Shown: positions 21,927 through 59,446 of the stretch, piece by piece
How positions within the stretch are numbered: position 1 is the stretch's first letter
Layout: each line of letters begins with the position of its first letter
Assembly (NCBI GenBank): GCA_022579005.1
Contig: MU401454.1
Coordinates: 1-64,000, forward strand
Length of the DNA: 64,000 nt
Source: Poronia punctata
Lineage: Eukaryota > Ascomycota > Sordariomycetes > Xylariales > Xylariaceae
Direction: 5' to 3'
Made by a program: the position numbers and the translations under genes
Notes under the pieces: model-generated
The model's input: the letters and a program-made list of their open reading frames with translations, nothing else
Told to the model about the DNA's origin: nothing
Database searches by the model: none

Positions 21927-23926
21927 TTAATTCACCATTACCCTAATACCCTTTGTATCAAGTTTAGGCAAAGGAACGAAACAATCATGTAGAATCTCCA
22001 CATCATCCAATCCAGTCTCATAAAGACTCAAGCGCGGGCCGAGACGGCGTAACAATATTGCCGTGACCATGAAGAGTTCCGCATAAGCAAGACTTGGAAA
22101 CATGTTAGTAAAAGGAAAAGAAAAAGAAGTCCAAAAAAAGAAGACTTACTTTATACCAATACATTGCCTACTTCCGCGCGAAAAGGATAGAATGTATTTC
22201 TCCCTACTCCTATCTCTTCTTCCCTGCGCATCGAGCCAACGAGTAGGATCGAATTCTTTCGAATGCGGGAAGAGTTTCTCGTCGTGATGGATGAGTGTCG
22301 AGCTCATACCTACCGGCGTTCCCCTGGGGATGACGTATTCACTCTTGGGAGCAGAGACGTCGCTTGCTGGTTGGTATACCATTGGTCCATCCGGCGAGAC
22401 GCGCTGAAGACGAGTACTGACTCCGTATGATAGTCTTAGTCCTTCACTGATGCAGGCGCTGTAAGGGGAAATGTCAGCAGTAAGCAGCGGAAGTTCGGAG
22501 TCGGTGCACTTATCAGATAGGGGAGCTTCTCTAGCTCGTTACAAGAAGGGTGGGATGTAGGATCTGGGATGGCAGCTTCTAATTCGGTCATGAGATTCTT
22601 GTAGACTGTCCTGTCTCGTAAGATGTAGAATAGGATGACGGAGAGAGCTAGGAAAGAGGTTAGTCGAAAGACGGTATTAGACGGGTAGGTGTTTGTGGAC
22701 GCACTCCAAGCTGTAGTTTCAGTGCCAGCTCCAATGATAATCTGTCCTTCTTGCCACAGTCGTGAAAGTGTCTTTTCGTTTTCTGGCAGATCGCTTTCGA
22801 GAAGCTCATGGAATATGGTGGCGTGTAGATTTTGCTCTTGTGCCAGCGTCTTACCGAGGCCCCTTTGTGCCTGTGTCTCTCGAATCTGGGATTTTACGTC
22901 CTGGCGTTTCGATGTTAGTAGTGCGATGAGACATTCAAACCACAGTCTGAGCTTGGCACTTACACGCTGGAACTGCAGATATATACCCATCTTCGGGTTC
23001 AAAGCAGTGACCCATGAACTAAACGACCCAACATCAGCTCGAACTCCCCTGGGCCACTTGGGATGTAATAACTTACTCGGGAAGCGCTTGCATGAGAGGA
23101 AAGATGAATCTAAACTGCTTGATATAAGGACCGAGATCGGTGCCAGCAACGATGGGAGCATGAAAGTTGGTCTCAAACGACGAATCTTCAAGGAAATCGT
23201 AAGATTTGGCAAAGGCGTACATAGTTACGACGTCGGTGGTGAGACAGCTAAAGGCCATGTTGAGTTGCAAAGGTTTGCGAGTGCCGATATATGTCGATAA
23301 CTGACGGCAGAGCTTATCGATCTTGCTGTGGATGGTGGGTTCTAACTTGGTGACGGAGGCCTTGGAGAAGAACCTGTTCATGGCACCACGTCGTAGACGA
23401 TGCAAGTTGTGATGCACAGTTCCGAAAACGCTCTACATGGTAGATTGACCATTTCTTTAGTCACAATTTAAAAAAAAAAAAAAAAAAAAGAGAGACTATG
23501 AATTCTGACTTCATACCTCGGGAATACTATCACAAATTACATGTTAGTGGACGTCGTCCTCGTCTCAGACTGAAAGCTTACTCATTGTAGGACGTGAACT
23601 TACCCGAATTGACTTGCATAGTACTCGTATTTATCGCGACGAACCGAGCCACCGGCATATACAGTATCGATGAAGCTTGGGTCATTGCAGTGTAGCTCCT
23701 CGGGTGAGATTCTCACGATAGGCCCATATTTATCGTGCATTTCCTGAATCTTAAAGGTATACTGACCACGCTGGACGCCATCGTAATAGAACTCATACCA
23801 GACAGTCGCCGCCGCCAGTTTCGGTCCTGGAAAGCTTGCAAGAGGGTGGAAATAAAGACGGTAGATGACTAACCCTGCCAGGTATAAGATGCCGGCAGCA
23901 CCAAGAAGCGTTATAGTGGACAACAT
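21927..23926 (-). CDS. Cytochrome P450 no. 1 (trichodiene-oxygenase-like); a splice donor appears damaged
   Basis: Eight exons are needed: 23926-23604, 23526-23517 (a 10-nt microexon), 23432-23077, 23018-22964, 22900-22705, 22647-22512, 22458-22150 and 22092-21927, for 516 residues. It has an N-terminal membrane anchor, the proline hinge [11 protein letters not shown], the I-helix GAGTETTAW, the K-helix EGLRL and the haem loop [10 protein letters not shown] with its cysteine ligand. All junctions are canonical except exon 6 to 7. The frame that gives the usual [13 protein letters not shown] text needs the intron to start AAGTGC, without GT. The nearest GT lies 2 nt inside and shifts frame before the haem cysteine. 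This looks like a 2-bp loss from a GTAAGT donor, an assembly error, or a non-canonical intron, so the gene may be non-functional. It resembles class II membrane P450s of the TRI4 type and diverges from the NRPS gene. Confidence 0.8.
22506..22516 (-). other. Defective 5' splice site in P450 no. 1
   Basis: On the minus strand the exon text ...CTGAT is followed directly by AAGTGCACC. Frame and family conservation both put the exon end after CTGAT (22512), where GT should follow. Inserting nothing but GT would recreate a consensus GTAAGT donor. The only real GT (22509-22508) leaves the wrong phase, and the exon 6 frame then runs to a stop inside exon 7. Confidence 0.6.
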
Positions 23927-24726
23927 GGTGACAGTGGAGGGCGGTTGTCGTCACCTGTTACTGAAACACCAAAGATCAATACCTACTGGAGGAACAGTAA
24001 CAATGGTAAGTGAAGGGTTCTCAGTCGTTACGATATAAAAAGACGGCAACTACAAAGTAGCAAAATCCACTCATCGTCGCCATCCCCCCAAGAAGCCGAA
24101 AAGTGAAGCAGGGTTCATTAGCTTGTATCAAGACCAGACTGGACTGGCACGATGTTGAAGGTACTGAAGAATTAACAAAAGGAGTAGTGCCGAGCCCCTG
24201 TACCGTGTACGATAGGGCTATTGGTCGGAAATTGGCGTTGGCTTACAGGGGGCTACAGGCAGGTACGTGGACTGTATCGCGGTACCTGCATAGTGGTCTT
24301 TTAGCCTGCTTCTTAGTACCTAATTCTATACTCAGGTTGCCCCGAGTGTTCCATCTTCAACTTTCTCCCTATCCGAGACTCCGAGGAATATCGTTCAACA
24401 ACATCGTCAGGTCAAGTCTACGCTTTTAGGCAAATTCTCTACTTATCCCAAAATCTTTCCTCAAGGGGAGTAATTTGCAATATTGTTTCCCCCAAGATGC
24501 GTAAAAAGATGTTGCATCTTCCCAGACGACGTGTCGTCGTAGAATCTTGATACCTTGGACCATGGCACGACTGATTGACTGATTGACTGACGTCCAGCAT
24601 ATTGAGAATAGAGTAACCAATCTCTAATACAGCCATAATCCGTAATCCATACCATTAGTCTATACCATATCTACCATCACATCTCCATCTTGCCGTGTCG
24701 CTGTATCATCTCCATCTCTCTTCTCC

Positions 24727-27700
24727 ATGCCTGTCCCTACCCTCGATACTAGTGTCGTCGACCTGGTCGACCACTGGTCAGCCAAGACTCCCGATGCCGT
24801 CGCCGCCGAGTGGCAGGGTCAGACACTCACCTATGCCCAGCTACGGGATGCCTCTCTGCATGTCGCTCATGCCCTTCTCTCAGAAGGGTCAGGGCCTGGT
24901 GCCAAGATTCCTGTCCTCACTCAGATGTCTCTAGAGATGTTACCGGCCATTGTTGGTGTTTTACGCACTGGAGCGTGCTACGTTCCAATGGACGTCATGG
25001 CATGGAGCAAGGACAGGATCGAAGCTGCTGTATCTACTGTGGCACCCCCCGTTGCTTTCGCCACTACATCTGTAGACAGCCTTGAACTTCCGAAAACCGT
25101 TCAATTTCGCCCGGAATTCCTAACCACACCATTCGACTGTACGGAAGACTTTGCTCTACGGTTGGACAAGATTAGGAACGGGTTGGGTCCCGATAGTCTC
25201 GCCTATGTCATCTTCACGTCTGGAACAACCGGAAAACCAAAGGGGGTCATGGTGTCCCACTTCTCGATTCATAACCTTGTCTCTCTCACCGAGGGCGATG
25301 TCATGAAGCCAACGCCGGGGAAGCGACTCCTCCTCACATTTTCAATCGGCTTTGACGGTAAGCCGAGCACTACTCAAGTCACGCTGCCAATTCGATACTA
25401 AGATGTAATTTATTATAGGCTGCGCTGGAATCGTCTGGTCCACTCTGACACATGGCGGGACCCTGGTCATGGCTTCGTCTTCCGACTTCCCTGAGAGGGC
25501 AACAACATGTCAGATTTTGATCCTCACGCCATCCATGTTAGCAAGTCTCGATCCTTCGTTGGGCTACGAGGGTGTTGAAGACATCTTCCTCGGCGGTGAA
25601 GCACCTAGCATGTCTGTCGTGCGACAATGGATTACACCGACTCGACATGTATATAATGCATATGGTCCTTCCGAGGCTACTGTGGCTGTCACTGTCGCAC
25701 GAATGGATCCCCACGAGGAACCGACGCTGGGGAACGTCATCCCAGGCGTAACGCTCGTCCTAGTCGATGAGGACATGAAAGAGGCGGAAGTGGGTGAGAT
25801 TTTGATTGCAGGTCCATGTCTAGCGGCCGGTTACATCAACAACCCGGAAATGACGGCAAAAAAGTTTATCCAGTGGAATGGCCGACGGTACTACAGGACG
25901 GGAGACAGAGCGCGTCGAACAGAGCGTGGACTGGAATGGGCCGGCCGCGTCGACCGGCTCGTCAAGAACAGAGGCTTCTTAGTGAACCTAGAGTCCGAAG
26001 TTGAACCGGCCATTCTACGTTTCGAAGCAGTTCGGGCCGCCACGGCCTTCATCTGGAGGGGAAGGTTGATCGGCTGCGTCCAGCCTGCCGAAGTCGATGT
26101 CGAGGCGCTGCGTGCATTCATGAAGGAGAATTTCGATCACTTCATCGTACCCGACGAGGTGCTGGCTATGAGCCACTTTCCCTTGACTGCGAACAGCAAG
26201 GTCGACTGGAATGCCCTCCGTGCTCAACTTGACGACAGACTAGTCAGCAGTGCCACTCCTGTTCCTGGCGAAGAACTGTCAGCTCTTGACGTGGCGCGGA
26301 TGGGATTTGCACAGATTCTTCTTGTTTCGCCAAACGATTTAGATGAGAATTCGTCATTCACCAAGCTTGGTGGAAATTCCCTGGCAGCCATCAAGCTTTC
26401 CCAGTTTCTTCGGAAACATGGGTACTCCATTTCGATCGGGCAAATTCTAAAGGCCGATACTCTCGGTTTGATCCAGGACGAGGCAGTACCAGATGCTCCG
26501 TTAGCCGAGAGCAATCAGTCACTCCCTGCTCCTCTGACTGATATGCAAAAGACCATGTTGGTTGAATCCCAGAGTGATACCGCGGAGAATTGTATCATCT
26601 TCAAGATGAAATATGTCGGCTCTCCAGTTCCGACTCCGAGCGAACTTGGCAAAGCTTGGGAAAAGGTTCTCTCACACCACTCCATCTTCCGAATGGTGTA
26701 CGACCTGGACAACTGGACCCAGACGGATTCGGCCGAAATCCATCTGGACACGCAAGAGGTTGTCGTGGTCGAGTCGCAATATGAGAGTGCCATCGAGGCC
26801 CAGATCAAGGCTTTATGGAGAGATGTCGAAGTAAACAATCCTCTGAGGCTCGATGTTCCATATTCATCCATGACCTTTGTCTCGGTGCCCGAGAGAAAGG
26901 CCTTGACCATGCTTTGGAGGGTCCACCATATCCTCATTGACGGTTTCTCCCTCGACCTGTTAACTCAGGACCTAAAGAAAGTATTAGCAGGAGAAAGCCT
27001 GAGTCCGTCACCTCGATATCAGGACTTTGCGCTCTTCTTCCAAAAGTATAGACAGGAGAACGCCGAAAGGGTGGAGAAACATCTAGGTCGTATTCTAGAG
27101 CCGGTCAAGGTGGCATCACCTCTAGAGATTCCTCGGCCGTTCACAGCGCCTGAGCCTGGGTCACTTCTCTTCCACACCGAGATCGCCTCGGCCGAGACAA
27201 AGAAGGATGTGCTCAACGCAGCGGCGCATAACTACGGCGTATCTAGTTCAACGCTCGTATCTGCCGCCTGGGCTCTCGTCTTACGACAACTCACAGCCTC
27301 TGATGCAGCGACTTGGCGAGTCAGTGGGTCAGGCCGCATGTTACCGTGGGCAGCAGCGGCATCCCTTGTCGGCAGCATGCACACGCGAGCGCTCATGTCT
27401 ACCGTCGTGTCCAATGACGCAAGTATATCAGAATGGCTTCAGGAGATGCATAACCGACTCTCGGAAGTGTCGGAGCTACAAAGCTTAACCTCATCCATCC
27501 CGGTCGACGCGCCCGAAAATACAGGTGTATACTTTAACTTCTTGGTTCAGTCGTTCCTCGGTATATCTTCATCCAAGGACGATTGGGATGCGACGGATCT
27601 ACAGAAACCATCTTCACAATTGGTGTGGCTTGTATACGAAGATGGAGATGATGTATACGTGGCCATACAGCTGGCTCCTAGGGCTACTGACATTAGCTGG

Positions 27701-27790
27701 GCCCGTAAGGTGAATCAGATGGGTGCCTATGCGCTTCGGGCATTGGTGACGGCAAAGTCTAGTTGTAGAATTGGGGATCTGCAGTTTTAG
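24727..27790 (+). CDS. Single-module nonribosomal peptide synthetase, A-T-C architecture
   Basis: Exons 24727-25357 and 25419-27790 (61-nt intron) give 1000 residues. The adenylation domain (1 to about 490) shows A3 FTSGTTGKPKG (163-173), A5 NAYGPSE, A7 YRTGD, the A8 variant GRVDRLVKNRGFLVNLE and the A10 lysine K471. A carrier domain follows with LGGNS, S531 taking the phosphopantetheine arm. The C-terminal half is a condensation domain with intact H713-H-I-L-I-D718-G. There is no thioesterase, reductase or upstream condensation domain. Such A-T-C proteins load one amino acid and can pass it to a small-molecule acceptor as an ester or amide; the aculene pathway, where a proline is placed on a sesquiterpene, is a known parallel. 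My hand-aligned ten-residue code is about D-G-G-I-F-G-A-V-A-K, which matches no code I can name, so the substrate is open. It shares a divergent promoter with P450 no. 1. Confidence 0.92.
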
Positions 27791-28377
27791 CATGCCATTT
27801 TTTATTCTCTTATTTATCTTAATATTGTATATAGTCATATCTATCTGAGGTCAGAAATTAAAGGGTCATGATTGATGTAACTCTCTACACATTATGCTGT
27901 TTGGTCTGCCTGAATCTACTACGCGTGATTATCTAGTGGTGATCATCAAAGGTGGTTAATGGGGAGTGTTTCTCGCCTCACTTCTTTAATAGATTACTAA
28001 ACAGGTTCTTTGAAAGTCAACTTAATGATGCCACCCAAAACGACCATGGACGAAATCTAGGTACTTACATAAGCTAGATTGATAGGGAGCAATTTGCGAC
28101 GACGATGACAATGACGATGCTCATGCCGTCTGTGTTGTCCGACTAGGTCAGTTAGTCTAGCCAATCGGGAAATCCCGAGCTCCGGTCCCGCATCAAAACG
28201 TTCCTAATCGGGCAACTTCCAAGTTGAGGCCCAGGGAAAGATACAATGTACATACTTGACTTACACGTGGGATCTCATAATAATATCATCATATACCTAT
28301 CTGTGTATATCGTCTTCGAAATGATCAGCAACAGAAATTGAACCAGACAGTCGGTATCATCTTCAATCCCAAACGTC
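27791..28377. other. Intergenic region, NRPS to carboxylesterase
   Basis: About 590 bp of ordinary AT-leaning sequence, holding the 3' end of the NRPS transcript and the promoter of the tandem carboxylesterase. No open frame or repeat worth calling. Confidence 0.5.
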
Positions 28378-29744
28378 ATGCCTTTATCCGTGACCTTTGC
28401 AGCAGTCCTGCTAGCATGGACAACAACCGCAGCCCGAATAATACCTCGTCCTCTTCCTCACCACGACAACAACAATAACGAAAACATACCGGTAGTAGAT
28501 CTAGGCTACACCATCCATAGCGCATCATCCGTGACATCGGTACAGAGCCTCCATCTCCTGGCCTATATGTGATTTATTGCAGTCAGGCTTCCCTGATCAT
28601 TCAACTTTCATTTTTTGCACTTTACTCACGCGAGGGGAAAAAACCAGGACATCTACACATTCTCCAACATCCAATACGCAACAGCCCCACGATTCGAAAA
28701 ACCAATCTATCCCCCAAAATCCACAGACCGCTCATTCATCAACAACGGCTCCCAACAATCCATTTGTCCGCAAGCCTATCCGGCATGGCAATTCTCCGCA
28801 GTCGCCTTTCTAGACGGAGAGGATTTATCGGATGCTGCGACGGAAGAGTTAATCGATCCGGAATTATTACCTCCGGTTGTGTATTCTTCCGAGAATTGTC
28901 TGCATTTAGATGTGCAAGTTCCCAAATCCGTCTTCGAGGAGAACAAGAAGAAAAAGGAGAAGGGGGAGAAGAAATTACTTCCTATCCTCGTGTATATCCA
29001 CGGAGGAGGTTATGTGCAAGGTCATAAGAGCGGTGATGGTGATGGGAAGGGACTGATTAAACGTGCGATGGAATTGGATGGTGAGGGGCGGGGGATTGTG
29101 TATATTGCTTTGAATTATCGGTTGGGGGTTTTCGTAAGTTTTTTTTTTCCGTCCCTTCTTTTCTTCTCCCCCTTATTTATTCTTCTTCCTATCCAGAGAA
29201 ATGTGAACTAAACAGAAAAACAAAAAAAAACAAAAAAACAGGGCTGGCTCTCCTCCCCCTCCTCTTCTATCCCCTCCAATCTCGGCCTCCACGACCAATT
29301 AGCCGCATTCCAATGGATTCAACAAAAAGCCCACCTCTTCGGCGGAGACGCCGACAGAATAACCATCATCTCGCAATCCGCCGGTGCTGGCTCAACAGCA
29401 ATTCATCTAGCCAATTCATTATCATCATCAAACAAAAAACTTGCCCTCCCTTTTCATCGCGCCATTTTACAAAGTCCATATACATCCCTCCCACCCACCG
29501 CAAAGACACAAGAAGGAACCTTTACACAAATATTGCAATTCGCCAACATCTCCTCTTCTCCAACAAAAGAAACGCAACTTGAATGTCTCGACACGAGAAC
29601 CCTCCAAGACGCCAACTACGCAGTGGTAGGAAAGTCCGTATACGGCTCATTTACATTCGGACCTGTCCTCGATGACGAGACTTATTCCTCCCCCTTGTCC
29701 ACTCTTCTTTTATCCTCCTCTTCCCAAAAAACAACATCCGGTTC

Positions 29745-29776
<32 letters not shown>

Positions 29777-30393
29777 CTTCTTCTTCTTCTTCTTCTTCTT
29801 CTTCTTCTTCTTCTTCTTCTTCAATCCCGTTGATTATAAGCACAAATTCCCAAGAAGGTCTCCTATTCACTTCCCCCAATACATTCTCCCGGGAAATATA
29901 TACTTCTGCCCTGGAGGCTTTACTCCCTTATTACCCCTCCCCCTTCCCCTCGTTATTCAAGGGTGACGATATCAAAAGCCTCAACGAGACCTTAGCATAC
30001 CTGTTGATTTCCTGCACGGCGAGATATATCCTCGATTCTTCTTCCACTTCTTCTTCTTCTGCATTTCATTATAGATATAGTGTGCCGAGCGGGGTCCATG
30101 CAGCTGATTTACATTATACGTTCTTCGATGGGGAGGATGTGGATGATTTACCGCAGAAAAACGAAACTGTTGCTAGGGCGTTTCAGGGGTATTTGGTGAA
30201 TTTTGCTTTGGGCAAGGAGGAGAATGTTGTGAGTGCTGGGGTTGAAGGGGTGGGGGATTTGGTTAAGTGGGGAGAGGAACAAGAAATGGGGATGGATTTT
30301 AATGTTACGGGGATTGTGGAAAAGAAGGCGGAGTGGTTGAGTAGGGAGGTTTGTGATGGGTTGAGGGATGTTTTGGGGGGTGTTTGGGCTTAG
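28378..30393 (+). CDS. Secreted type-B carboxylesterase/lipase-like alpha/beta hydrolase
   Basis: Exons 28378-28530, 28648-29133 and 29242-30393 give 596 residues. The first donor is uncertain (GTGACA at 28531 or GTACAG at 28540, both in frame). Residues 1-19 look like a signal peptide. Family landmarks are SNIQYATAP, SENCLHLDVQVP, the oxyanion loop YIHGGGYVQG and ALNYRLGVFGWLSSP. The nucleophile elbow reads SQSAGA, so the usual first glycine of G-(E/Q)-S-A-G is serine here. A glutamate in TNSQEGLLF and a histidine in GVHAADLHY complete the triad. A run of about 25 serines, encoded by pure TCT repeats, sits before the acid-residue strand and is a fast-changing microsatellite. The role is probably ester hydrolysis. 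Within the cluster it could release or move an acyl group, but it could also be an unrelated neighbour. Confidence 0.85.
29748..29822 (+). repeat. (TCT)n microsatellite encoding poly-serine
   Basis: About 25 uninterrupted TTC/TCT units inside the carboxylesterase exon 3, translated as serine. The complement reads as a poly-glutamate frame that has no other support. Confidence 0.95.
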
Positions 30394-30819
30394 GGTTTTT
30401 TTTGTTAGGGGAAGGGTAGGGGGGAGCTCCGGAGAGTTAACTTAATTAAGAGAGTTGTTATTATTGCTTCATTGTGTCGCTTTGACCTACGTCTTAACTG
30501 TTGATAGCGTGTTGGGGTGGGGGGTGACAAGTCTGTGGCTACTGAACATGTCTTTCTCATCTTAATCTGGGTAAATAAAGACGACGGCTAGAAGAACTTG
30601 GACTTGTAAATAAGTTGGTCTGTATATTCATATGAATCATATCTACGAGTATATTCTCTACCATAATGTTGCCCGGGGTCGATATCACAATGAGTTACAT
30701 ACAATACGTGATCATCCCACTTTCTCACAATCAACGAACAACATTATCACTACGCTAAGACCACCATATGTCGTAGTTGAATAAATAGATTTATCAAAAG
30801 AGAATATGTGTAGAGTCAA

Positions 30820-33375: not shown

Positions 33376-35176
33376 ATGGCTACCTCTGACCCTTTCGCCC
33401 CATACAAGGTTAATGCGAACCCTTCAGCGCATCAGTTCAACACCCTCCAAGTCCATGCCGGTCACAAACCAGACAAACAGACACGGGCACGTGCAGTACC
33501 CATCTATGCGACCGCGGTAGGCTTTTCGCCCCTTTGCTATGTCTGGCAGGAAGAATGATGATATACTAACGTCCCGCGTTCAAGTCTTATGTTTTCGACG
33601 ACTCCGACCACGCACGTCGCGTGTGTACCAACGAAGAAGCAGGCTATGTTTATTCACGCATTTCTAATGTCAGTAACTCCCGCGAATGCCCACCGGTGGC
33701 TACGAGTAAGTATCCATACTCACGCATGTTTCTGCCTTAGCCGACTGTAGAGGTGTTTGAGAAGCGGTGTGCTGCTCTCGAAGGCGGATCAGCAGCTGTC
33801 GCCACAGGTTCGGGTCAAGGCGCTGTGTTCCAGACCATAATCCTGCTCGCGCAGACGGGCGACAACATTATCGCATCACGGAACCTATATGGCGGTTCCT
33901 ACAGCTGTCTCAAGACACTTCTCCCGCGGCTGGGTATTCAGGTCAGGTGGTTGGATGCCGGAGATCATCCGGAAAATGTCGCCCGCTTGATCGACGAAAG
34001 AACAAAGTTGGTCTTTGTGGAGACAATCGGAAACCCCCGATGCACCATACCTAACCTTCGAGGCATCGCCGATGTTGCCCATGAAGCCGGAATCCCTCTA
34101 GTAGTGAGTATCAGGAGACACGGTGAAACTCTCTCCGTGCTCAATGCTGATCAACATTTGGATAGGTCGACAACACGTTTGGTGCCTGTGGCTACTTTTG
34201 CCGGGTTAAGGACTTCGGTGCCAACATCATCGTTCATTCAGCCACCAAGTGGATAGGAGGACACGGAACCACTGTAGGCGGTGTTGTCGTTGATGCGGGC
34301 AACTTCGACTGGGCAGCCTATCCCGACCGGTTCCCCCACATCGGCAAGCCTTCGGGTGACGTTATGGGCTTCTGCTATGCAAAAGCTTTCGGCAATGCCG
34401 CGTTCGCCATGGCGTTACGCATCGACGTCGTAATGGAATCTGGTGGCGTGTTAAACCCGTTTGCCGCGCAGCAACTTATCCTTGGCTTGGAGACGTTGAG
34501 TTTGCGATGCGAGAGAATAGCGAACAATTCACTCCGCCTCGCTCGGTATTTGGAAAGCCATGAGAGGATCGCCTGGGTTCTCTACCCCGGTATGGAGCTT
34601 CGGAATCTTTTGTTATACTTGTCCGAATCCACAAAGCTGACAACAGATTCACACAGGCCTTCCGAGTAACGGTGAAAACCACGAGAGGGCCAAGACCGTA
34701 CTCAAAAGCGGTTTCGGCGGAGTCTTGTCCGTCGGCATCGTTGGTGGCAATGAAGCCAGCAAATATGTCATTGATAACTTTAAACTCATCTCGAACATGA
34801 CCAAGTAAGAGCCGTCACCCTTGGATCTCGTGGCTGGCCGGAGTAGAGGCTAACCTCGATGCAGCGTTGGAGACTCTAAAACCATGGCAACCCATCCGTG
34901 GTCCTCGACCCACGTCATCATGTCGGAAGCTGATCGTATCGGTGCCGGAGTGACAGAGGTAAGAATTACAGTGCCATGACTATACCAGGTCGCGTGCTAA
35001 CGTCTTCATAGGACCTCATTAGAATAAGTATAGGGACGGAGTGTATCGAGGACATTGAGCGGGATTTCGACCAGGCATTGCAATCCATTCCGTTGGAGCT
35101 CATAAAAAGTTCGATCAAAGAAGATGTCCCCAGTGATTCTGGATTCGAATCATCAGACCCCGAAGGCTTACCTTGA
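33376..35176 (+). CDS. PLP-dependent Cys/Met-metabolism enzyme, O-acetylhomoserine sulfhydrylase-like gamma-substitution enzyme
   Basis: Seven exons (33376-33516, 33585-33668, 33741-34103, 34166-34589, 34657-34804, 34865-34958, 35012-35176) give 472 residues in frame throughout. Landmarks are [64 protein letters not shown], and [13 protein letters not shown] with the PLP lysine K224, then [16 protein letters not shown] and [14 protein letters not shown]. Housekeeping members make homocysteine from O-acetylhomoserine and sulfide. Cluster-borne relatives such as Fub7 (fusaric acid) and CndF use O-acetylhomoserine to build unusual amino acids by gamma-substitution. The position between P450 genes, next to an A-T-C synthetase, favours a specialised role, perhaps supplying the amino acid for the NRPS. 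A second gene copy elsewhere in the genome would be expected for primary metabolism. Confidence 0.9.
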
Positions 35177-35596: not shown

Positions 35597-35600
35597 TTAT

Positions 35601-35708
35601 TGTGGGGGAAGGTACGGATCTGGCTATAATAGAGGGTCTGTTACAGTGGGATACTGTATTTGCTCCAACACTTCTACACATATCATAATACACCTATCCA
35701 CCCTAACA
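35601..35708. repeat. Left terminal direct repeat of the TRIM-like element
   Basis: 108 bp, TGTGGGGG...CCTAACA. It contains a TATAAT-like box at 35625-35630, a plausible LTR promoter. Identical to the copy at 36332. Confidence 0.85.
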
Positions 35709-36331
35709 TATGGTGAGAGCTGCCGCCTTCGTCTAAATCCTGTTTGCGGTCCTATCGCGGTACATTACACATTAAGATATTAAGGTTAATTATTCATATT
35801 TAATATGTAATTCCAACGGTCATTTCACCGGCGTGCATACCTCGCTGCCGCCGTCGCTTTGCTTGCCTCTTTGGCGTTTCTTTTGGCTACGCTACAACAT
35901 ACATACCTACCGAATTGAAAGAAGTACAAGCAATGGCAGTATTCCGACCTACATACCTATACAAGACCAGATCTCCTCGCCGCGGCTCGAGTAGAGAGAA
36001 GAAAAAAAGAAATACCTACATGCACACACTTCCCTTTATTTTTCAAATTCATCATGAACAACGTCGGCAACGGGTCTAATTCGATTAAAATTCAAAAAAT
36101 TCCAGCACATAACTCTGCACCAAACTTGGTAGACGGTATCCGACGTATTTCCGGGCCGGCGCAAGGGAAGGGGCAGGTAGAGGAGACCTTGTGGAGTGGT
36201 CATATTTGAGGCAGTTGAAAGGGACATTGAAAATGACGTTAATTATGATAATTCTGAAGGTATTTCGGGCGGTCTGTTTGTGTGTGGTTTTCGCCCTCGG
36301 CGGTGCTCGTTGCGAGGAAGGTTTGGCCGTG

Positions 36332-36439
36332 TGTGGGGGAAGGTACGGATCTGGCTATAATAGAGGGTCTGTTACAGTGGGATACTGTATTTGCTCCAAC
36401 ACTTCTACACATATCATAATACACCTATCCACCCTAACA
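36332..36439. repeat. Right terminal direct repeat of the TRIM-like element
   Basis: Exact copy of 35601-35708, 731 bp downstream, followed by the second TTAT. It ends 42 bp from the ABC transporter stop codon, so it may supply part of that gene's 3' UTR or polyadenylation region. Confidence 0.85.
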
Positions 36440-36481
36440 TTATGCTCTATAGAAAACCTGTTATCTGCCTATATTTTGGTA

Positions 36482-41346: not shown

Positions 41347-42526
41347 ATGACTGCCATCATGCATGCCTTTGAGCCTACGATGGCCAAGCACGAGGTTGAG
41401 GCTTTCGTCCAGGAGCTCTCTGAAGAGACACCACCCACGACACCGCCCAACGGCCGTGCAGACCTCGATGTCCAGATCCCCGATGTCCCTCCTACCTACC
41501 TCAAGCCATCATGGCACCCCAACATGGACGAGATCATCCGTGAGGTTGACCAGTATTTCCTCGACAACTGGGGTTTCACCTCGGAGAAGGAACGCAAGAA
41601 GTTTGTCGTCGCCGGCTTCTCTCGAGTTACTTGCATGTACTACCCCATGGCCGACGACGAGAGAATCGCCATGGCCTGCAAACTCCTCACCATCCTTTTC
41701 CTAATCGACGGTAAGTACCTAACTAATTCATCACCCCCCCCCCCCCCTTTGCTTTCCATTCTTTCTTCTTACTGCATTATAAATACTAATCACACACACC
41801 TTTTCCCCCACAGACCTCCTCGAAGACATGTCATTCGAAGACGGCGAGGCCTACAACAACGCCCTCATGCCCATCATGCGCGGCGAAGTCCTCCCCAACC
41901 GCGCCATCCCCGCCGAATTCATCATGTGGGACCTCTGGGAATCGATGCGGGCCCTAGACCACGACCTAGCCAACTCGATCCTCGAACCGACCTTTGTGTT
42001 CATGCGGGCGCAGACCGACCGCGAGCGCAAGAAGATCAAGGGATTCGGCTCCTACCTGATCTATCGCGAGCGCGACGTCGGAAAAGCATTGCTCTCGGCC
42101 CTCATGCGGTTCTCCATGGACCTGCACCTATCGGAAGAAGAGACGCTGCTGGTCAGGCCGGTCGACGAGAACTGCTCGAAACATATCTCCATCATCAACG
42201 ACATCTTTAGCTGGGATAAGGAATTGGCGCAGTCGTATACGGGTCACGAGGAGGGGTCGGTGCTTTGTTCGTCTGTGCAGGTGCTTGCTGAAGAGGCGAA
42301 CCTGACGATTGAGGCGTCGAAGAGGGTCTTGTTTGCTATGGCGAGGGAGTGGGAGCTTACGCACCTGAAACTGGCAAAGGAGATTGAGAGGGACGAGAGG
42401 TTGTCGTCGGACAGGAAGGACGGGGTTATGAGTTATATCAAGGGGTTGGAGTATCAGATGAGTGGGAATGAGCTGTGGAGTTCGAGCACGTTGAGGTATA
42501 TCGGGGTTGAGGGCGGTTCGTTCTAA
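41347..42526 (+). CDS. Sesquiterpene cyclase, aristolochene-synthase-like
   Basis: Exons 41347-41710 and 41814-42526 (103-nt intron with a run of C) encode 358 residues. The class I metal-binding motifs are both intact: D121-D-L-L-E125 and N250-D-I-F-S254-W-D-K-E258. The second half (GEAYNN, DLWESMRA, LEPTFVFMRAQTDR, YRERDVGKALLSALMRFSM, KGLEYQMSGNE and a C-terminal RY) follows the fungal aristolochene synthases closely, much more so than trichodiene or presilphiperfolanol synthases. The N-terminus is more divergent. The expected reaction is farnesyl diphosphate to (+)-aristolochene or a related eremophilane/germacrane hydrocarbon, in the cytosol and Mg2+-dependent. The product should be confirmed because single changes alter such cyclases. 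TATAAGA near 41184 and the 23-bp repeats are upstream. It is the core gene of the cluster. Confidence 0.93.
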
Positions 42527-50465: not shown

Positions 50466-51805
50466 TGCCATGCAACCTACCCGTAGTGACTTCTGCACGA
50501 TAACCGACGCCGACATGAGCCGGTAGTTGGTGTTCCCATGCATGCACATGTCCGACGTCTTTACCAGTACTTACCCCTTGCCCGCCATGTGGCCGATGAA
50601 ACGGGAATGAGATTATCTACCCCCCACGGTAGAGACACGCAGGCGGAACCCTCTCTACATACACACCTCATATTTGGAACAACAAGAAGCAAAAAGCAAA
50701 AAGCCAAAGCCCTAGACTAGTACTAAGTAAGCTGCACTATCGGCGTTAGCCCTAAATGTGAGAGAAATATTCGGAGATTGGCTAAAGGCGTGATCAAGTT
50801 GAATCCCGTCCCGGAATTGACTGGGGTTCAGTTCAGCTCCTGATCCCTGCAATAGGAGGAAATATCTTGGTAGTTCTCCTCTTCGTCAACCCCAGTATTA
50901 CGTAGAGAACATATTGGCGCCCCCCCTGTAACGTCATAGGCTGGCGTATCACTGTATCTATCTATCACCCTGTTTGTCCGTCTATACAACTACGTACGTA
51001 GGCACCCGGATGAAGAAATGGAACGGGGACTTGCACTAGAACATCTACTAGTAACTATATATAGCGGCAATGTAAATTGGAATATTAAGATAAATATATA
51101 CTTTATAGCTTCATCTGTCTTCTAACATTGTCGTGATTTTTTTCAGCAGATTTCTTCAAGTGCGGAACAAAAGATATAAGCTAATAGGAATATGGGTTAT
51201 CGTAGGCTACCAAGTGGTATTACGGACCCCCTGTTTCCTTTTCTTGTCACCCGTATAATAGGTGTATCTAAGTTCCTCTAACATCCTATCATCTCCCCCC
51301 CTTCCTGTGCCATGGTAATAAACCATTGATGAAGCCAAGACCGTAGCAGTCAAAATTGTCAAAAGATGCCTGTTCAATCCTGATTGGACTTTTTGGTATG
51401 CCTTTCCTGACAAGTCCTACCTCACACACTCTCCTAACGACTGGTTTGCCCCCCTGCCTCTGGAAAAATAATGTGTCTATGCGAACCGATTGTTTCACAA
51501 CCCTTGGCTTTTGAACCTATTGATCTCCTTTCGATGCTATCGCGAAATAATTTAATCAGCGTAGATGAACAGGAAAATGTTAACGGTGTAGACAAATCCT
51601 CCAGTCCGTTTTATGCAAACACAGGTAATAAGTTCAAAGTTTGTTTATTTCATAACCCAGAAACAACACCTTATTTATTCTACGTCCCCATTCTCTACCC
51701 CTATTCCCTTTCCCTACTTAGTTCTCGCGAAAGAACGATTCCACATAAAAAACGACAAAGATTAAGAAAGTGTACTTGGGCACATAAAATACTTTACTAA
51801 AACTC
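50466..51805. other. Intergenic region between the SDR and P450 no. 5 (3' ends converge)
   Basis: About 1.3 kb of non-coding sequence. Short frames at 51471-51800 and 51207-51498 have no motif. Nothing else is supported. Confidence 0.5.
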
Positions 51806-53634
51806 TCACAAACTCCGTCTCTTAAACAACATCCTCCTCGTAGGATCCGGACCACCAACGACCTCAAAAAACCCATGTAACTGACCCGGATCATCGTCCA
51901 AAAGCTTCATATCATACTTCATGATGATCTTGGACAATAGAACCTTTAATTCAGCAGCAGCGAAGAATCGGCCGGGACAAGCAGAGCGACCGTGTCCTAG
52001 AAAATCATCTAGTTAATGACAGAAACGCAAAGAAAAAAAGGGGTTGGGGGGGGGGGGGGGGGGCGGGCTGGCTGACTTACCAAAACTCAAACTAGCCTCA
52101 TTAATAGAAGTAAACTGAAACCGATTATCATCCGCCGGCGTATTCCGCAACTTCTCGAACCGGAACCCATCGAATTCGGAAGCGTCTTCCCAGATTCGCG
52201 GGTCGCGCGCTACGGCGTCGGCTGCTACGGCCAAGGAGGTGTTTTTCGGAAGGGTCGTGCCGTCGGATAGGGTTACTGGTTGGAGGACTTTGCGGTTGAC
52301 GGAGACTATGAATCGTTTTTTTTTTCGTCAGCGAAAAGAAAGAAGGAGAAAAAGGAAGGAAAGGCTTTACCGAGACCAGGGACATTCATCCTCTGAGCTT
52401 CCCGTAGAAAACTATCCATCTTCTTCATCTGGAACAGACTCTGTTTCGTGAGGACGGCGTCCGGACCGGCGTGGTGCTCGATTTCGTCTCGGAGGGGTTC
52501 CAGGTATTCGGGTCTTTTGGCGAGTTCGTAGAGGGTATTCGAGAGCTTTCCCCAAAGAAATCAGCAACTTGGGTCAAAATAAAGTGATGTAGGAAGATTG
52601 TGTGTTTTACCTGTCCACTAGTAGTATGTATAGCTGCGATATTCAAGACAATATGCTGACGAGTATGATACTTGAGACTCCACGGATCCCCCTTAGCATG
52701 TTGAACAAGCCAAGACGTCATGTCAGCCGGGGGCTCGAAGTCCGGATCAGCCATTTGCTTCTTCCTCTCTTTCAGTAGAGGTGCTAGCATCTTGGCCGTC
52801 TTGTCAAAGTACATCCGGACGCCCTTGGTCTCGGGGAGGAAGTACTGGACCAGAGGCCACGACCACGAGGGGAATTCCCACAGTTTCCCGGATCCGGCCA
52901 TGGCGTTCAAGGTGACGTTTATAGCCGCGTCGATCCTGACAGAAAAGTTAAGTCCGGGGATTAGCTTTCCAGGGAAGAATGGAAAAGAAAAGAAAAAGAC
53001 TCACCATTCAGGCGTTCGCGAAAGTGGCAATCCAACTAGAGTCCGACCAGATAAAAAGGCAATAAGACGCGTAGAAACGCTATGCAGCGACACCTCAGTC
53101 CACGAATCGCTCGATAGTTCACCGAGGGAATCGGCAATAGCGTAATCAGACTCTTCCATCATGGTAGGGAGAAGTGAATCGATTGATCTTGTCAGATCGA
53201 CCTTGATAGACTTGACCATGGCATCCTCGTTCGAGGCAAAAGCCGTGTACCGACCCAGGAATCGATCGTACATCTCCGTTCTAAAGCTCATCGACTTTTC
53301 CGGGAGTTTGTGGAGCTCGTTGAGGAATTTGGGGGAAACGATGTACATGGGGAGATTGGATGTCGGGATGCTGAATATGCTGTCTCCGGACTTGATTGGT
53401 TATGTTAGTAAAGAAGAAAACTTGAAAGATAGATCCTCATCGGTGCTGCCTGCTTACCCCTTGATATCCCTCTTGGAGCATCTTTCTGAAATCTCGTTGG
53501 TCATTTGAGTAGAGTTTCGCGGCGAGTTGCTTGGGTCGTCTGACCAGAAACGAGACAAAGATACTGATGACGGCACATAGCGACAGTGGCATGAACAGAG
53601 CCCTGAGGTTCGAATACAAGAGGATGTCCTCCAT
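51806..53634 (-). CDS. Cytochrome P450 no. 5 (CYP68/ent-kaurene-oxidase-like)
   Basis: Six exons (53634-53458, 53390-53005, 52935-52611, 52545-52371, 52305-52081, 51996-51806) encode 492 residues in phase. It has an N-terminal anchor (LFMPLSLCAVISIFVSFLV), SGDSIFSIPTSNLPMYIVSP, the I-helix LNIAAIHTTSGQ, the K-helix REAQRMNVPG, FDGFRFEKL, and the haem loop FGHGRSACPGRFFAAAELK. Like P450 no. 4 it has A-x-H-T-(T/S) in the I-helix and the same haem-loop style, so the two are probably distant paralogues within one clan. Intron 5 carries a run of about 18 G. The gene ends FKRRSL, which in this group is a normal C-terminus. Its role is presumed oxidation of the cluster terpenoid. Confidence 0.92.
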
Positions 53635-56600
53635 CTTCTTGACACTACGACAAGATTTACCCTGGGTACCAAGTACGTATCGATCTGAGGTTTGTCTAAT
53701 AAGTGGTAGAGTAGATACGTAGGTGTACGGCTGCTACCTAGACTACCTCATCTAGTTATCTGAAGTGATCAATCAGACCAATGGAGTCTCCGCGATGCCG
53801 TCTACTTCACATTTTACCTAGGCTTTCAAAAGAGGTGTGTGATGTTTGATAATATCATGACATATACAAGTCTGAAAAGGGAACCTAACGAAGTTCCGGC
53901 AAGTTGTAACTGCTATAAGCTATACCGGTAGCGGTCCCGGGCTTGCCTATAGACAAGGTCCGAGTCCTGACATTATACACTAAGTAGACTGCAATATGCC
54001 AAATTAGCACTTGTCTTGTAAAACATTAATATTATGAAGCTCGCATTCTGTCGCATAAACAGTTGTGTTGCAGCCGGACATACACGGACGTTCGGTATAT
54101 CCTGTTCGGGAGATTTTCACACCCTGGTGTTTTCAGGGTCTTCGGGGTCTTGGCAAAGGAAATTCAGTGTAAGGATACTTCCGGGGTGCCGGTTCTAAAC
54201 TTTCTAACCTTTGGTCTACGAACCACGAGGCAGAAACTTGTGCATCGCGTTCGTCCAGAGTTCAGAGATTGTTCGTGTCCCAAGAGATGTATGATTTCAA
54301 GTTCTAGATCATGCAATCCGTGTGTTTTCACACACCTTGAGGCTTGAGGCTTGCCCTCCACCCCTCCTCCCACACCGCGACGTACCTACCTAGGAGCGAG
54401 CGGGGCGGAGCGTATGCCTGCAGCGTATGCCTGCATGGTATTGCCGGCCGGAAATCAGCTGCCATCACGAACAAACCACAGCTAGAATATTACGTGAACA
54501 CATCGCCGATAAACTACGGACACACACACGTAATTATGACAATATTGGTAGATCAAAGGTCATCATAAACACCTTTGGTAACTGTATCAGTATTCTCTTT
54601 GTAATGATAGACTTGGAAATTCCCTTGGGGGGGGTGTGGTCGCTGCGTAATTCGTGCATGTGCCACATGCCGGCAATGCTGATCAGGTGTACATCCCTAG
54701 ACCTATACAAGACTACCTTCAACGGACGGATCGTTCCGCCGAACAAAAACAAGTGTTGAGCTTATGTAACATTGCCTATCAACGAAACATTCTGGACTAG
54801 GTTAGTCTCGTTGTTTTATTTTCGATTTTATCTCTATATTTTGCTGGGGAGCGTCCGAGGTAATTGACAGACTGAACTTGTACTCGTATACTCGTATGCG
54901 CGTCTACCACACCACACCAATACTTGGATGCGCTTACTTTGCCAAGTTACACAAATTGCAAAAGCAAAAATCAGGGTCCAGTATGACAGGCACACAGGGT
55001 CCATATTAGCGTCCGTTACAGTTGAGATTCCCGTCTTATGCTTAACTATTCCCGTTCATCTGCCCTTGTCTGTATACATAATACATAGATACCTACCTAT
55101 GTATCTATGGTACGGCGTTTTGGATTGACCAGTATGTATGTGAATAAGTGCTTACTATCAACCTGGTATATTCCACCCCCTTGCCGACCCCCTCGCCCCT
55201 GTTCAGGATCAATTGCGCAAATGTAATCAATCACCTAACACCGAGATTGGAAGGTTACTCCCTTTTAGCAACTTGCGTCTAATGCAAGTGACAGGCTCAA
55301 TCCCCTTGTCATCAGGATTTTAGATACCTACTTTCAATCCTTCTTTCTTACTTTCAACGCATCAGCTGAGCCTGAACGCATTTTCCCAGATTACTTATCT
55401 CGAATTTTTACATGGGGAAAACAAAAAGACGAGGACCCTGAATTTTCCCTTCCCATCCTTCCCCTGGTTAGACTACCTAGATCAATAATCCCGTAACACG
55501 TATTCTTGCGGGTGACGTATGACCAAGGAATCTGGTATCATTTCGCCTATTCCCATTTTAGTATCGCAAGCCCCCTCTCCTCCTATCGCTCTAATTTACG
55601 AGTACCTGGTAAAACAGCGTATATGGAGAAGCAAGCCAACACGTGCTTAGGTATGAAATCTACACGCCGGGTAGTTTCCGGTGTTGCGCTTTGCATCTAC
55701 TAGGTATTTGACACTCTTAATCAATCACATGTCACGGGACCAAAGGTAAACTATTATGGCATGATAAACGCCTAACGCCTCGGTGTTTGCCCGCGGTCTA
55801 GATCTGCCTAAGTAACCTTGGTTAAATCCTCGTACCTAAATTTATAGAAAGTACTTTGTAACCTTTCCGCTACCAAAGGCTAACCCCCACGTAGTCTAGT
55901 CTAGTAAATATAGGGCCGGGGGTAGAGGGGGTTGGTCTGTGGGGTATTAGGCTTTTAGTTAAATTTTAAAGTTAAATGTTGAGTGTGGAGGTCAAGATAT
56001 ACGTGTACCTATTAATTACGATACAAGAGTTTTAGCTTTTCTTTTTGCTATTCTAGGCCTCTTCCCAATCAGGCAGTGCCGGTAAAGGTTCGCTTGGTTA
56101 AGCTTTTTGTTTCCAAGGGACGGCTCGCCCTCTACCTATTATTATGTGAGACGGTAGTTGTACCGCCACACCCGCAATGCGTCTGTAACAACACGGAATT
56201 GCCGACATTACTATAGGATGTTCAGTCATCCCGTATGTCTTCGAGGAGAATGTCAACACTAGGTAGGTAGATTGGTACATGTATCTACTAGTAGATGCTT
56301 TATCTGAGGTTGTTCCTTTTTGCAAAAGTATTGGCTTTTCTTCAAGTAGGTAGCTTTAGGTACGTTTCCTATGTCGAAAGTTCAGAATATCTCAACATGT
56401 CTCTTCTCTCCTGACTACGCCGCCCGGGTCTTCCTCCATGGAAAGACCCTGAAAATCAAAGGTTCGAGATGACTTGTTCCTGCACGATACTAATAGTTTA
56501 TAAATGTCAGCACTATCTACCCTTCCCTTCTCGTTAGTTAGCCCGGACCCACCTAAGATAGACGTTAAAATTCTACTACCTACTACCCTTCCCTTCTCTT

Positions 56601-57856
56601 CAAAAGCTAACCTTAAAGTTCTCGTTGTTTTGGCGGCTAACTAGGGGGAAATATCTAACGGTAAGTATATGTACACGTAGGTTTGTCTAGGTACCTAGGT
56701 ATTTATCGGTGAACTAACGTGACACGCGTGAGTAGGGTCCTGATTACTCACATGCCAAGGAGCTCTACCTATCCTCCGCACTTGGCACGAATCTGTACAC
56801 AGTACGCGCGTGTACTGTATTCAGCATTTTGAGTTTGTGCACGTACATGTCAAGAAAATTGTAGGGCAAATAACCCCTGCTACACACGTGTCCTTGGGGC
56901 TTCGGAATCACTGCGAAATTCCGGCCGTCGGGCTTTTGAAAGTAGATCTGGGGATGAGCTAATTTGTTAGGCTACGAGTTTGACAGACGTTGGACCCATG
57001 TTGACCTTACTCATCCGTTAGTGACATGAACATACATCACGAAGATAGATCCAAGAAATATCGGTGGCAAGAATATCAACTCAAGGTTAATACAGTCAAA
57101 TACCCTATCTTGATCACTGCAAGTATGTAGACGAGTAAAAAGACATGTTGTGGCTAAGAGATCGCGTAAGGAAACCAGGCCCTTAGTGCTTATACTGTAG
57201 GCGAGATCATTTTCATACGGTACAGTCACCATACCTTGGCAGTAGACAGAAAAGCCACTTCCCCTTCCCCACCCCCTTTCAAAGGAAAAAACCCCATTTC
57301 TGGAAAAAAAAATCCCATCTATTTGCGACACGCTTTTCGGTAGTAAATAACTCCTATATGCGTGCTTTGATTTCTAGGCATATTTCCAATCCCGGAGATC
57401 TTTTTGGCCTGTGGATTAATTAACTCGTTCTCTGTTGTCGTTGTTGTTGTTGTCTTGTTTCCTTCCAAAGTTGACCATCCGACAGCAAGGGGTAAGGTTA
57501 GACATCTGGGGCCCCACTGAATTTGACAGCCATCTCGGATTTACCTTTTCCATCCCCTCATTGCGAACCTACCGAAAGGGGCAAGTTTTCGTCGCAGGGA
57601 AGAATCTGGCCAAGGTTTCGGCTATTGTAGTTTACATCCTCGATGCCACTAAAGCATCCCTAGATAGAGCCTAGTCCCCCAGCTACATAGACTATCACGG
57701 ATTTGCAATTTTGTATCGTCCAAAGAGAGGCACAGAATCGGGAAACCTGGTCCCGACACTATCGCTCGCTATAAGTTGCCCGCCGCATCTGCACATACAT
57801 GTAAATTGCCATTGTACCTAGTGCGCCAGGGATATCGCAGAATTCACCGAAGAAAA
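53635..57856. other. 4.2 kb intergenic region between P450 no. 5 and the acyltransferase
   Basis: Only short frames, none with a family resemblance or splice support. The DNA is rich in TACCTA/TAGGTA words (for example 55080-55110 and 56670-56705). The gap leaves it open whether the acyltransferase belongs to the same cluster. Confidence 0.5.
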
Positions 57857-59446
57857 ATGGCCAAAGAATATAGGCGCGTCCAATCTACCAGGCGGGTTTT
57901 CCCCGCCACGCGGCGACAGACGGCGACCACAACTAAGTTGTCGATTGTGGATGCATCCGTCGCTCGCTTCGCTCCCTGCGGCGCTATCTGGTTCTTTGAC
58001 GGGGCTCAGGATCTTGATGCCAATAACCCTGTCATCTTTCAACGAATCGAAGCCGCTCTTAGCCAAACCCTGGACGATTATCCGCACTACTCAGGCCACT
58101 TGCAATGGGCAACAAGGGACATGGTCGGTGCCGACACCAACCCACGGCACACAGGAAGGCCAGTGGTTGTTTACGGCACGGCGGATGATCCAGGTGTTGA
58201 CCTAATCGTGATGCAAGATGATCGGGAGCTGCGCGACATCGTGCCCGGGCTAGACGAAAGGGCGACGACTAAGAGGGTGTGGTTGGCGTCGGATTTCCCG
58301 CAGGGGGACTTTCTGGCCGGCACTACACTTGCATTCTCCAACCTCGCCCAATATGTTGGGCTCCCAGGAGTGGCAGTCCAGTTAACCGCGTTCAAGTGCG
58401 GCGGACTAGCTATTAGCATGAAAGCCACCCATTGTTTATCCGACGCAGCGTGCCTCTTGCAGTTCGTCCACTCCTGGGCGGCCCACTCACGCAAGCTTTT
58501 CCTTCCCGACACTAAGGAACCGGCATGGGAGAAACCCATCTTCAACCCAGCACAACTAGATGAACATGCTAGGTTGATTTCCCCGGCCATCACGCCAGAT
58601 CCTGAAAGGATCAGTCGTGCTAGGAATCTACCGATGCATCGTTTCGATTGGTGGGCAACTGAAGCACCAGGGTTCCCGTCCTGGGCGACAACGTCTTCAG
58701 ATGGCACAAAGCCAACCCCTGAGGAGTTACAACAAGTGACGCTAAGTCCTTCATCCCACCCCCCTTGGCCTACATGGGACATGGGCGCCGCGGTAGAACA
58801 TGTCCAGATCCGTTTCAGAAGCGAAGAAGTTGCCAAGATGAAAGTCGCAGCCGGGAAAACAGTACCGGTAAAGGGACAGATTGTATCGCGGCAGGACGCA
58901 CTTTTAGCTCACGTGTGGATCATAATAAACCGAGCAAGGGGGCTCCAGGGGTCGGCCGAGCAGGTGTATCTAGACATCACCCTAGGTTTGAGACAAAGGG
59001 TCTCGCCTCCACTGCCGGATAACTTTGTGGGGTCTCCTATCTTGCTAGCTTACGTAGCCCAGACAGGTTCTGCAGCAGCGACTGCAAACCTTGGTACTAT
59101 TGCGAGCTCTATCAGGAGCGTGATGGGCCTTTTCACCCCACAGGCAGTTTCCGACTACCTCTATGATGCGGCCCACGAGGTCAGTCCGCAACGGCTATGG
59201 CAAGCATTCCTTGGGACCCAGCATACTCTGGTTACTAGTTGGGCACGTGCCCGAGCCTATGAGGTCGATTTCTTCGGTACCAGCCAGCTGGCCCGGTATG
59301 TACAGGGGGTGATGCCGAAGCTCGACGGTCTTGTCCAGGTGATGGATATTGCAGAAACTGGCGAATTTGATGTTAGCATTGGTCTTGAAAAAGAGGCCAT
59401 GCAGAGGCTCCTCTCCGACCCCTTGTTAAGAAGCTTCGATGAGTAG
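57857..59446 (+). CDS. BAHD-like acyltransferase (TRI101/trichothecene O-acetyltransferase type)
   Basis: A single exon of 529 residues from the ATG at 57857; the frame is open upstream but has no other ATG. The catalytic H-x-x-x-D motif is H192-C-L-S-D196 within ISMKATHCLSD. The second family motif near the C-terminus is degenerate (VDFFGTSQ instead of D-F-G-W-G), as in many fungal members. Other landmarks are the N-terminal LSIVDASVARFAPCGAIWFF, SQTLDDYPHYSGHL, and the mid-protein SRQDALLAHVW and DITLGLRQR stretches. The enzyme should transfer an acyl group from acyl-CoA to a hydroxyl of a small molecule in the cytosol. Together with the cyclase, P450s and SDR it fits late acylation of an oxidised sesquiterpene. 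It is 4.2 kb from the nearest cluster gene, so membership is probable but not shown. Confidence 0.87.
   Translation: MAKEYRRVQSTRRVFPATRRQTATTTKLSIVDASVARFAPCGAIWFFDGAQDLDANNPVIFQRIEAALSQTLDDYPHYSGHLQWATRDMVGADTNPRHTGRPVVVYGTADDPGVDLIVMQDDRELRDIVPGLDERATTKRVWLASDFPQGDFLAGTTLAFSNLAQYVGLPGVAVQLTAFKCGGLAISMKATHCLSDAACLLQFVHSWAAHSRKLFLPDTKEPAWEKPIFNPAQLDEHARLISPAITPDPERISRARNLPMHRFDWWATEAPGFPSWATTSSDGTKPTPEELQQVTLSPSSHPPWPTWDMGAAVEHVQIRFRSEEVAKMKVAAGKTVPVKGQIVSRQDALLAHVWIIINRARGLQGSAEQVYLDITLGLRQRVSPPLPDNFVGSPILLAYVAQTGSAAATANLGTIASSIRSVMGLFTPQAVSDYLYDAAHEVSPQRLWQAFLGTQHTLVTSWARARAYEVDFFGTSQLARYVQGVMPKLDGLVQVMDIAETGEFDVSIGLEKEAMQRLLSDPLLRSFDE

Follow-up and report, generated by a model that had tools for sequence, protein, structure and literature searches.

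A candidate eremophilane–amino acid hybrid gene cluster in the ascomycete Poronia punctata

Introduction

Nitrogen-bearing terpenoids are rare, and few fungal pathways joining a terpene to an amino acid are described in the available text of PMC10720950. The block considered here extends from position 21927 to position 59446 of a 64,000-nucleotide stretch of the xylarialean fungus Poronia punctata (assembly GCA_022579005.1, contig MU401454.1, positions 1 to 64,000; hereafter the window), which belongs to a contig of 686,993 bases. It comprises an aristolochene-type sesquiterpene cyclase, a single-module non-ribosomal peptide synthetase (NRPS) with adenylation, thiolation and condensation domains (A-T-C), and a pyridoxal phosphate (PLP) enzyme of the O-acetylhomoserine sulfhydrylase family, together with five cytochromes P450 (P450s), a short-chain dehydrogenase/reductase (SDR) and other genes. 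We consider it slightly better than an even chance (a probability of roughly 0.55) that these genes form one biosynthetic cluster, in which an oxidised eremophilane would be esterified by the NRPS with a non-protein amino acid made by the PLP enzyme; the chemistry of every step, the nature of the amino acid and the site at which it is attached are what we infer from the genes themselves.

The closest described counterpart is the flavunoidine (flv) cluster of Aspergillus flavus, in which a sesquiterpene cyclase, a single-module NRPS and an SDR accompany an O-acetylhomoserine PLP enzyme leading to 5,5-dimethylpipecolate (PMC8902786). Both loci have a cyclase, P450s and a single-module NRPS that esterifies, or in the window would esterify, a terpenoid with an amino acid, which a PLP enzyme and an SDR supply or would supply; the likeness is one of enzyme kinds. 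The first-pass annotation of this DNA had held that no described cluster joins cyclase, NRPS and PLP enzyme, and flavunoidine contradicts this (PMC8902786). The window differs in its free-standing PLP enzyme, its aristolochene-type cyclase, its five P450s, its acyltransferase and its pump. As far as the available text of PMC8902786 goes, the flv pathway needs a fused PLP/dioxygenase protein (FlvA), a second cyclase-like enzyme (FlvF), a methyltransferase and a decarboxylase, and its cyclase FlvE makes acoradiene. A fused dioxygenase domain was not found in the window PLP protein (472 amino acids, aa), and neither a second cyclase-like enzyme nor a methyltransferase or decarboxylase occurs among the 12 models of the block, the latter two not having been sought elsewhere in the genome. 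That the locus is the flv cluster proper is hardly credible: the same three core enzyme kinds and an SDR are present, but the cyclase keeps the pocket landmarks of an aristolochene synthase, and the missing genes and the unfused PLP enzyme led to rejection of this candidate.

In the aculene (ane) and CJ-12662 (thm) pathways an A-T-C NRPS esterifies an oxidised sesquiterpene alcohol, which is the step proposed here. AneB esterifies aculenes with L-proline, the second histidine and the aspartate of its HHXXXDXXS motif being involved in the esterification, and ThmA and FlvI are named in the same single-module family (PMC10720950). An alpha/beta-hydrolase of the ane cluster has a carboxylesterase as its counterpart in the window. 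The difference lies in the substrates, since AneB and ThmA load L-proline and L-tryptophan and the cores are daucane or amorphadiene; no PLP enzyme is named in the available part of PMC10720950.

The window PLP enzyme is of the same family as Fub7 of fusaric acid biosynthesis and has the same presumed donor, O-acetylhomoserine. The same family and presumed donor are found in CndF, the PLP enzyme of citrinadin biosynthesis. In the PR-toxin cluster an aristolochene-type cyclase is accompanied by an SDR and several P450s, and the agreement of the window with PR-toxin-type SDR, P450s and acetyltransferase is at the level of Pfam families only. The deoxyphomenone cluster also resembles the window in its aristolochene-type cyclase, SDR and several P450s; the available text of PMC11980549 lists the cyclase, the SDR, three P450s, a major facilitator superfamily transporter, a lipase/thioesterase and a membrane protein, and names no NRPS or PLP gene.

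As to the expected class of product, a review of Xylaria metabolites includes many eremophilanes and, in its available part, names no eremophilane amino-acid conjugate (PMC10971283), and an aldoxime is the one eremophilane containing nitrogen that is named in the available part of a review on nitrogenous sesquiterpenoids (PMC7321145). No paper pairing an aristolochene-type cyclase with a PLP gamma-enzyme and an NRPS was found among those listed in literature searches that covered few subscription journals, which makes this weak evidence of novelty.

The PLP Enzyme

The family model PF01053 covers residues 23-442 of the 472 aa. The catalytic blocks are intact, and the 13-residue block around the PLP lysine is identical to that of the housekeeping consensus and of FUB7. 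The best match in the PDB was FUB7, to which the window enzyme is 52% identical; its identity to two housekeeping rows is 56-58%, and FUB7 itself is about 70% identical to those rows. In a tree of 120 homologue rows and FUB7, the window enzyme fell in a long-stemmed clade of 37 rows (support 1.0) that excludes the housekeeping CysD enzymes as well as FUB7, and FUB7 grouped with CysD. The best PDB match is therefore misleading, and ancestry from FUB7 was ruled out by the trees. The earlier description of the enzyme as Fub7/CndF-type fails, as a statement of descent, for its Fub7 part; judged from sequence, 'Fub7-type' may apply at most to its activity, as it would if the enzyme were to form a C-C bond with an aldehyde or keto acid.

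The clade is also marked by its residues. There are 43 alignment columns at which 90% or more of the 83 other rows agree on one residue and 70% or more of the clade has a different one, and the clade's commonest residue is carried by the window enzyme at 31 of these columns and by FUB7 at 2 (counted from the listing). An earlier cut at the common ancestor of P0121 (the Poronia row) and P0146 gave 24 rows with a support of 0.046 and left P0127 and P0130 outside; the 37-row clade, which includes P0127, replaced it, and the counts were transferred to it by hand.

Further members of the PLP family occur in the genome, one of them on contig C9 with 56-59% identity in two pieces, so that the window copy is not the sole one. 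Another lies on the window's own contig at 191788-193264 (minus strand), about 157 kb away; it is 38-53% identical in pieces, with stops in some of them that may reflect introns or decay.

The NRPS

The protein consists of A-T-C only, its carrier motif LGGNSL holds the serine, and its condensation domain has HHILIDGFS, which fits HHXXXDXXS. These are the features that the available text of PMC10720950 gives for terpene-esterifying single-module NRPSs, namely an A-T-C architecture, a carrier serine and the motif (Q/H)HXXXDXXS.

With the code positions mapped by those of GrsA, the adenylation domain reads DGGIFGAVAK. In an alignment of 85 relatives of 800-1150 aa, the pattern DGG[IV][FY]G[ASC][VT]AK was present in 17, two of these with alignment gaps; among the remaining 68 it was not seen, P0096 being too gapped to judge. 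The 17 pattern-bearing proteins formed two groups that were not sisters in a midpoint-rooted tree. All eight NRPS rows linked by contig to a cyclase row carry the pattern, and so do the three aligned ones linked to a PLP row of the clade; a fourth row of the latter kind, P0105, was too short for the alignment.

The Cyclase

The best PDB matches were aristolochene synthases, with that of Aspergillus terreus first (418 bits; 59.7% identity over 310 aligned residues). Fourteen residues of the A. terreus enzyme, its metal, diphosphate and pocket landmarks, are all identical in the window enzyme. In a tree of the listed homologues of at least 280 aa and one shorter row, the clade holding the window enzyme is xylarialean, and the enzyme of A. 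terreus is placed in a different part. Cyclase paralogues with identical motifs can yield other products. From its sequence the product is likely, not certain, to be an eremophilane. Stromatoneurospora phoenix makes eremophilanes, and Poronia is its closest relative in the phylogeny given in the available part of PMC7558325.

Linkage in Other Fungal Genomes

Genes were called co-located when a longest contig of equal length and an identical organism name recurred across three homologue lists (NRPS, PLP enzyme and cyclase) of 120 rows each; the call concerns the shared contig, with distance indicated only where locus tags lie close together. Each row represents a cluster of sequences at 90% identity (4 under P0121, 3 under P0122) and may conceal further members, and the PLP list took no proteins above 826 aa, such as a fused FlvA. 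After removal of contigs below 5 kb, 35 of the 37 clade rows and 56 of the 83 other rows were usable.

Among the rows listed, eight genomes have a cyclase and an NRPS together on a contig: Poronia, Xylariaceae FL0594, Nemania FL0916, Xylaria curta, Hypoxylon crocopeplum, Hypoxylon NC1633, Xylaria FL0043 and Aspergillus arachidicola. A PLP enzyme of the clade lies with a cyclase in 6 of the 37 rows (Poronia, Hypoxylon NC1633, Tricladium, Conoideocrella, Colletotrichum plurivorum and Fusarium sp. NRRL 66182) and with an NRPS in 4 (Poronia, Hypoxylon NC1633, Xylariaceae FL0255 and A. pseudotamarii). None of the 83 PLP rows outside the clade shares a contig with a cyclase or NRPS row, a rough control that is unmatched by organism to the cyclase list. 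On the superseded 24-row cut the counts were 5/24 against 1/96 for the cyclase and 3/24 against 1/96 for the NRPS. Consecutive locus tags, F66182_793 and _794, belong to the PLP and cyclase genes of Fusarium sp. NRRL 66182, and BDV24DRAFT_162700 and _162710 are also near each other; several of the linked contigs exceed 1 Mb. Two linked rows have short models, of 252 aa for the Hypoxylon NC1633 cyclase and 581 aa for the Xylariaceae FL0255 NRPS. The relatives from Aspergillus section Flavi in this set may represent flv or another locus.

The conserved co-occurrence of the three genes, which had been put forward as a check on the first-pass annotation, was borne out pairwise in several lineages; all three together on one contig were seen in two genomes only, Poronia and Hypoxylon NC1633, among the rows listed. 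A partition of the block into two adjoining pathways, an eremophilane cluster (cyclase, P450s, SDR and acyltransferase) and an independent NRPS/PLP conjugate cluster, would agree with the occurrence of cyclase and PLP enzyme without a listed NRPS row in Tricladium, Conoideocrella, C. plurivorum and Fusarium sp. NRRL 66182, and of NRPS and PLP enzyme without a listed cyclase row in Xylariaceae FL0255 and A. pseudotamarii. It is nevertheless decidedly improbable, since the genes of both putative halves are interleaved (Table 1) and cyclase and NRPS keep company in the eight genomes listed above. The block moreover contains four divergent pairs, namely P450a/NRPS (800 bp between the genes), P450b/PLP enzyme (623 bp), pump/cyclase (735 bp) and P450c/P450d (595 bp). 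NRPS, PLP enzyme and cyclase therefore each face another gene of the cluster, sharing a short upstream region with a P450 or the pump, which also speaks against such a partition.

A second alternative concerns the role of the PLP enzyme. The pathway could be aculene-like, with an NRPS that uses an ordinary amino acid, as AneB uses L-proline and ThmA L-tryptophan (PMC10720950), and with the PLP enzyme as an accessory sulfhydrylase for sulfur supply, a methylthio group or self-protection. The enzyme may indeed be a plain sulfhydrylase, given its score of 523.3 bits with TIGR01326, the O-acetylhomoserine/O-acetylserine sulfhydrylase model, against a curated cut-off of 495.1. Six of the eight contigs with cyclase and NRPS have no listed PLP row, and their NRPS codes are nearly unchanged. 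These absences are unproven, the PLP rows being 90% clusters that may hide members. The clade, which mostly departs at the 43 columns from residues otherwise nearly fixed, is no plain duplicate, and its linkage to a cyclase or an NRPS recurs in Fusarium, Conoideocrella, Colletotrichum, Tricladium and Aspergillus. An accessory role is on these grounds considered unlikely.

The proposal of a single eremophilane–amino acid cluster has to be weighed against these sulfhydrylase and linkage results and against several further points. Four of the six cyclases linked to a PLP enzyme, namely those from Tricladium, Conoideocrella, C. plurivorum and Fusarium, belong to a clade other than the xylarialean one, so that cyclase and PLP enzyme were paired either very early or on more than one occasion. 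Single-module NRPSs may load acids other than alpha-amino acids, SubK being predicted to take nicotinate or benzoate (PMC13107220, in its available part). None of the 12 models is a dedicated supplier of an aldehyde or keto acid as nucleophile, such as a polyketide synthase, and no common motif (AflR-type, zinc-cluster half-site patterns or shared words) was found in the cluster promoters. The product deduced earlier, an eremophilane ester of a non-standard amino acid, is supported in part by the type of cyclase, the esterification motif of the NRPS and the pairwise linkage; the absence of the PLP gene from otherwise conserved cyclase clusters, named in the first-pass annotation as evidence against it, was observed in part, with a PLP row on only two of the eight contigs.

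Proposed Pathway

In the proposed cluster, the cyclase would act on farnesyl diphosphate to give aristolochene or a closely similar hydrocarbon of the eremophilane type, which the P450s and the SDR would oxidise. The PLP enzyme may turn O-acetylhomoserine into a vinylglycine quinonoid, and addition of a nucleophile at the gamma carbon would give the non-protein amino acid. This could be pipecolate-like if the nucleophile were an aldehyde or keto acid and if the SDR or another reductase reduced the ring imine. The adenylation domain of the NRPS would activate the amino acid and the thiolation domain carry it, and in the condensation domain a hydroxyl group of the terpene would attack the thioester to form the ester. 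The acyltransferase would acylate one hydroxyl, and the pump would export the product.

Gene Models and Flanking Regions

Exon chaining over 21927-59446 on both strands gave 12 open models (Table 1), all in agreement with their Pfam families. The block starts exactly at the stop of the first P450 model and ends with the acyltransferase model. The models of NRPS, PLP enzyme and cyclase are identical over their full length to Poronia punctata proteins at NCBI, each listed with a contig of the same length, so that their splicing is independently confirmed; the other nine are based on the present exon chaining alone. The parts listed before (the cyclase with its motifs, five P450s, SDR, acyltransferase, ABCB pump, A-T-C NRPS and PLP enzyme) were all recovered by the spliced models and Pfam, and their interleaving is seen in the gene order; the carboxylesterase was absent from that list. 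Seven intergenic gaps of the block were scanned and held no predicted model above 70 aa. The SDR gave generic matches only in PDB and NCBIfam searches.

Table 1. Gene models of the block in Poronia punctata, in window coordinates
Feature	Position	Strand	Basis
Cytochrome P450 (a), 516 aa, 8 exons	21927-23926	-	model; PF00067, 1e-58
Single-module NRPS, A-T-C, 1000 aa, 2 exons	24727-27790	+	PF00501/PF00550/PF00668; 100% identical to P0001
Carboxylesterase, ~565 aa	28378-30393	+	PF00135; model spans (TTC)27 tract
Cytochrome P450 (b), 487 aa	30820-32752	-	PF00067
PLP enzyme, O-acetylhomoserine sulfhydrylase family, 472 aa, 7 exons	33376-35176	+	PF01053, TIGR01326; 100% identical to P0121
ABCB-type full-size ABC transporter (pump), 1226 aa	36608-40611	-	two PF00664 and two PF00005 stretches
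Aristolochene-type sesquiterpene cyclase, 358 aa, 2 exons	41347-42526	+	PF19086; D-D-L-L-E, N-x3-S-x3-E; 100% identical to P0241
Cytochrome P450 (c), 508 aa	43547-45258	-	PF00067
Cytochrome P450 (d), 519 aa	45854-47527	+	PF00067
SDR, 307 aa	49246-50287	+	PF00106
Cytochrome P450 (e), 492 aa	51806-53634	-	PF00067
Acyltransferase, 529 aa, single exon	57857-59446	+	PF02458

Some details of the models and their surroundings may be added. In P450a the frame is kept (PYL|SACISEG) across an intron at 22461-22513 (minus strand) only if this is of the rare, non-canonical AT-AC type (ATAAGT...CCTTAC), and one exon would have just 10 nt; both are features of the model. The (TTC)27 tract, at 29742-29822 within the carboxylesterase gene, would encode a serine run or be intronic. 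A perfect direct repeat of 109 nt (35601-35709 and 36332-36440) lies between the PLP and pump genes. Directly upstream of the block, frames read by eye at 14117-21685 suggest a putative carbohydrate-use block with a beta-helix protein, a glycosidase of the GH31 type and a sugar transporter, and a frame at 3073-4815 (minus strand) resembles, also by eye, the fungal transcription factor Ste12. Rfam gave no match in the window. The first gene seen downstream of the block is a regulator at about 64380-65944 of the contig, 0.4-1.9 kb beyond the window end. Its Zn(II)2Cys6-like cysteine pattern was read by eye in two frames, and the C-terminal part gave a weak AflR match of 17.9 bits, below the cut-off of 24; this gene is possibly the cluster's own regulator.

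Significance

On present sequence evidence, what is new here beside flavunoidine is the type of terpene cyclase, which is another one, and the separate lineage of the PLP enzyme. It is tempting to speculate, though with somewhat less than even confidence, that the locus represents an undescribed and widespread class of eremophilane–amino acid hybrids. This would be a second, Fub7-independent recruitment of O-acetylhomoserine sulfhydrylase, an enzyme of the methionine pathway, as a maker of amino acids. Its partners would be an aristolochene-type cyclase in Xylariales, Hypocreales, Glomerellales and Helotiales, and a single-module NRPS in Xylariales and Aspergillus. The pair of cyclase and PLP enzyme would then be older than the link to the NRPS, and the amino acid would therefore be joined to the terpene by other means in some lineages. 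The most interesting part is the separate clade of the PLP enzyme and its recurring company with aristolochene-type cyclases. If the proposal is true, an eremophilane branch would be added to the fungal terpene–amino acid pathways, and the PLP clade together with the adenylation-domain code would provide a sequence handle for the mining of such hybrids and of new enzymes for non-protein amino acids.

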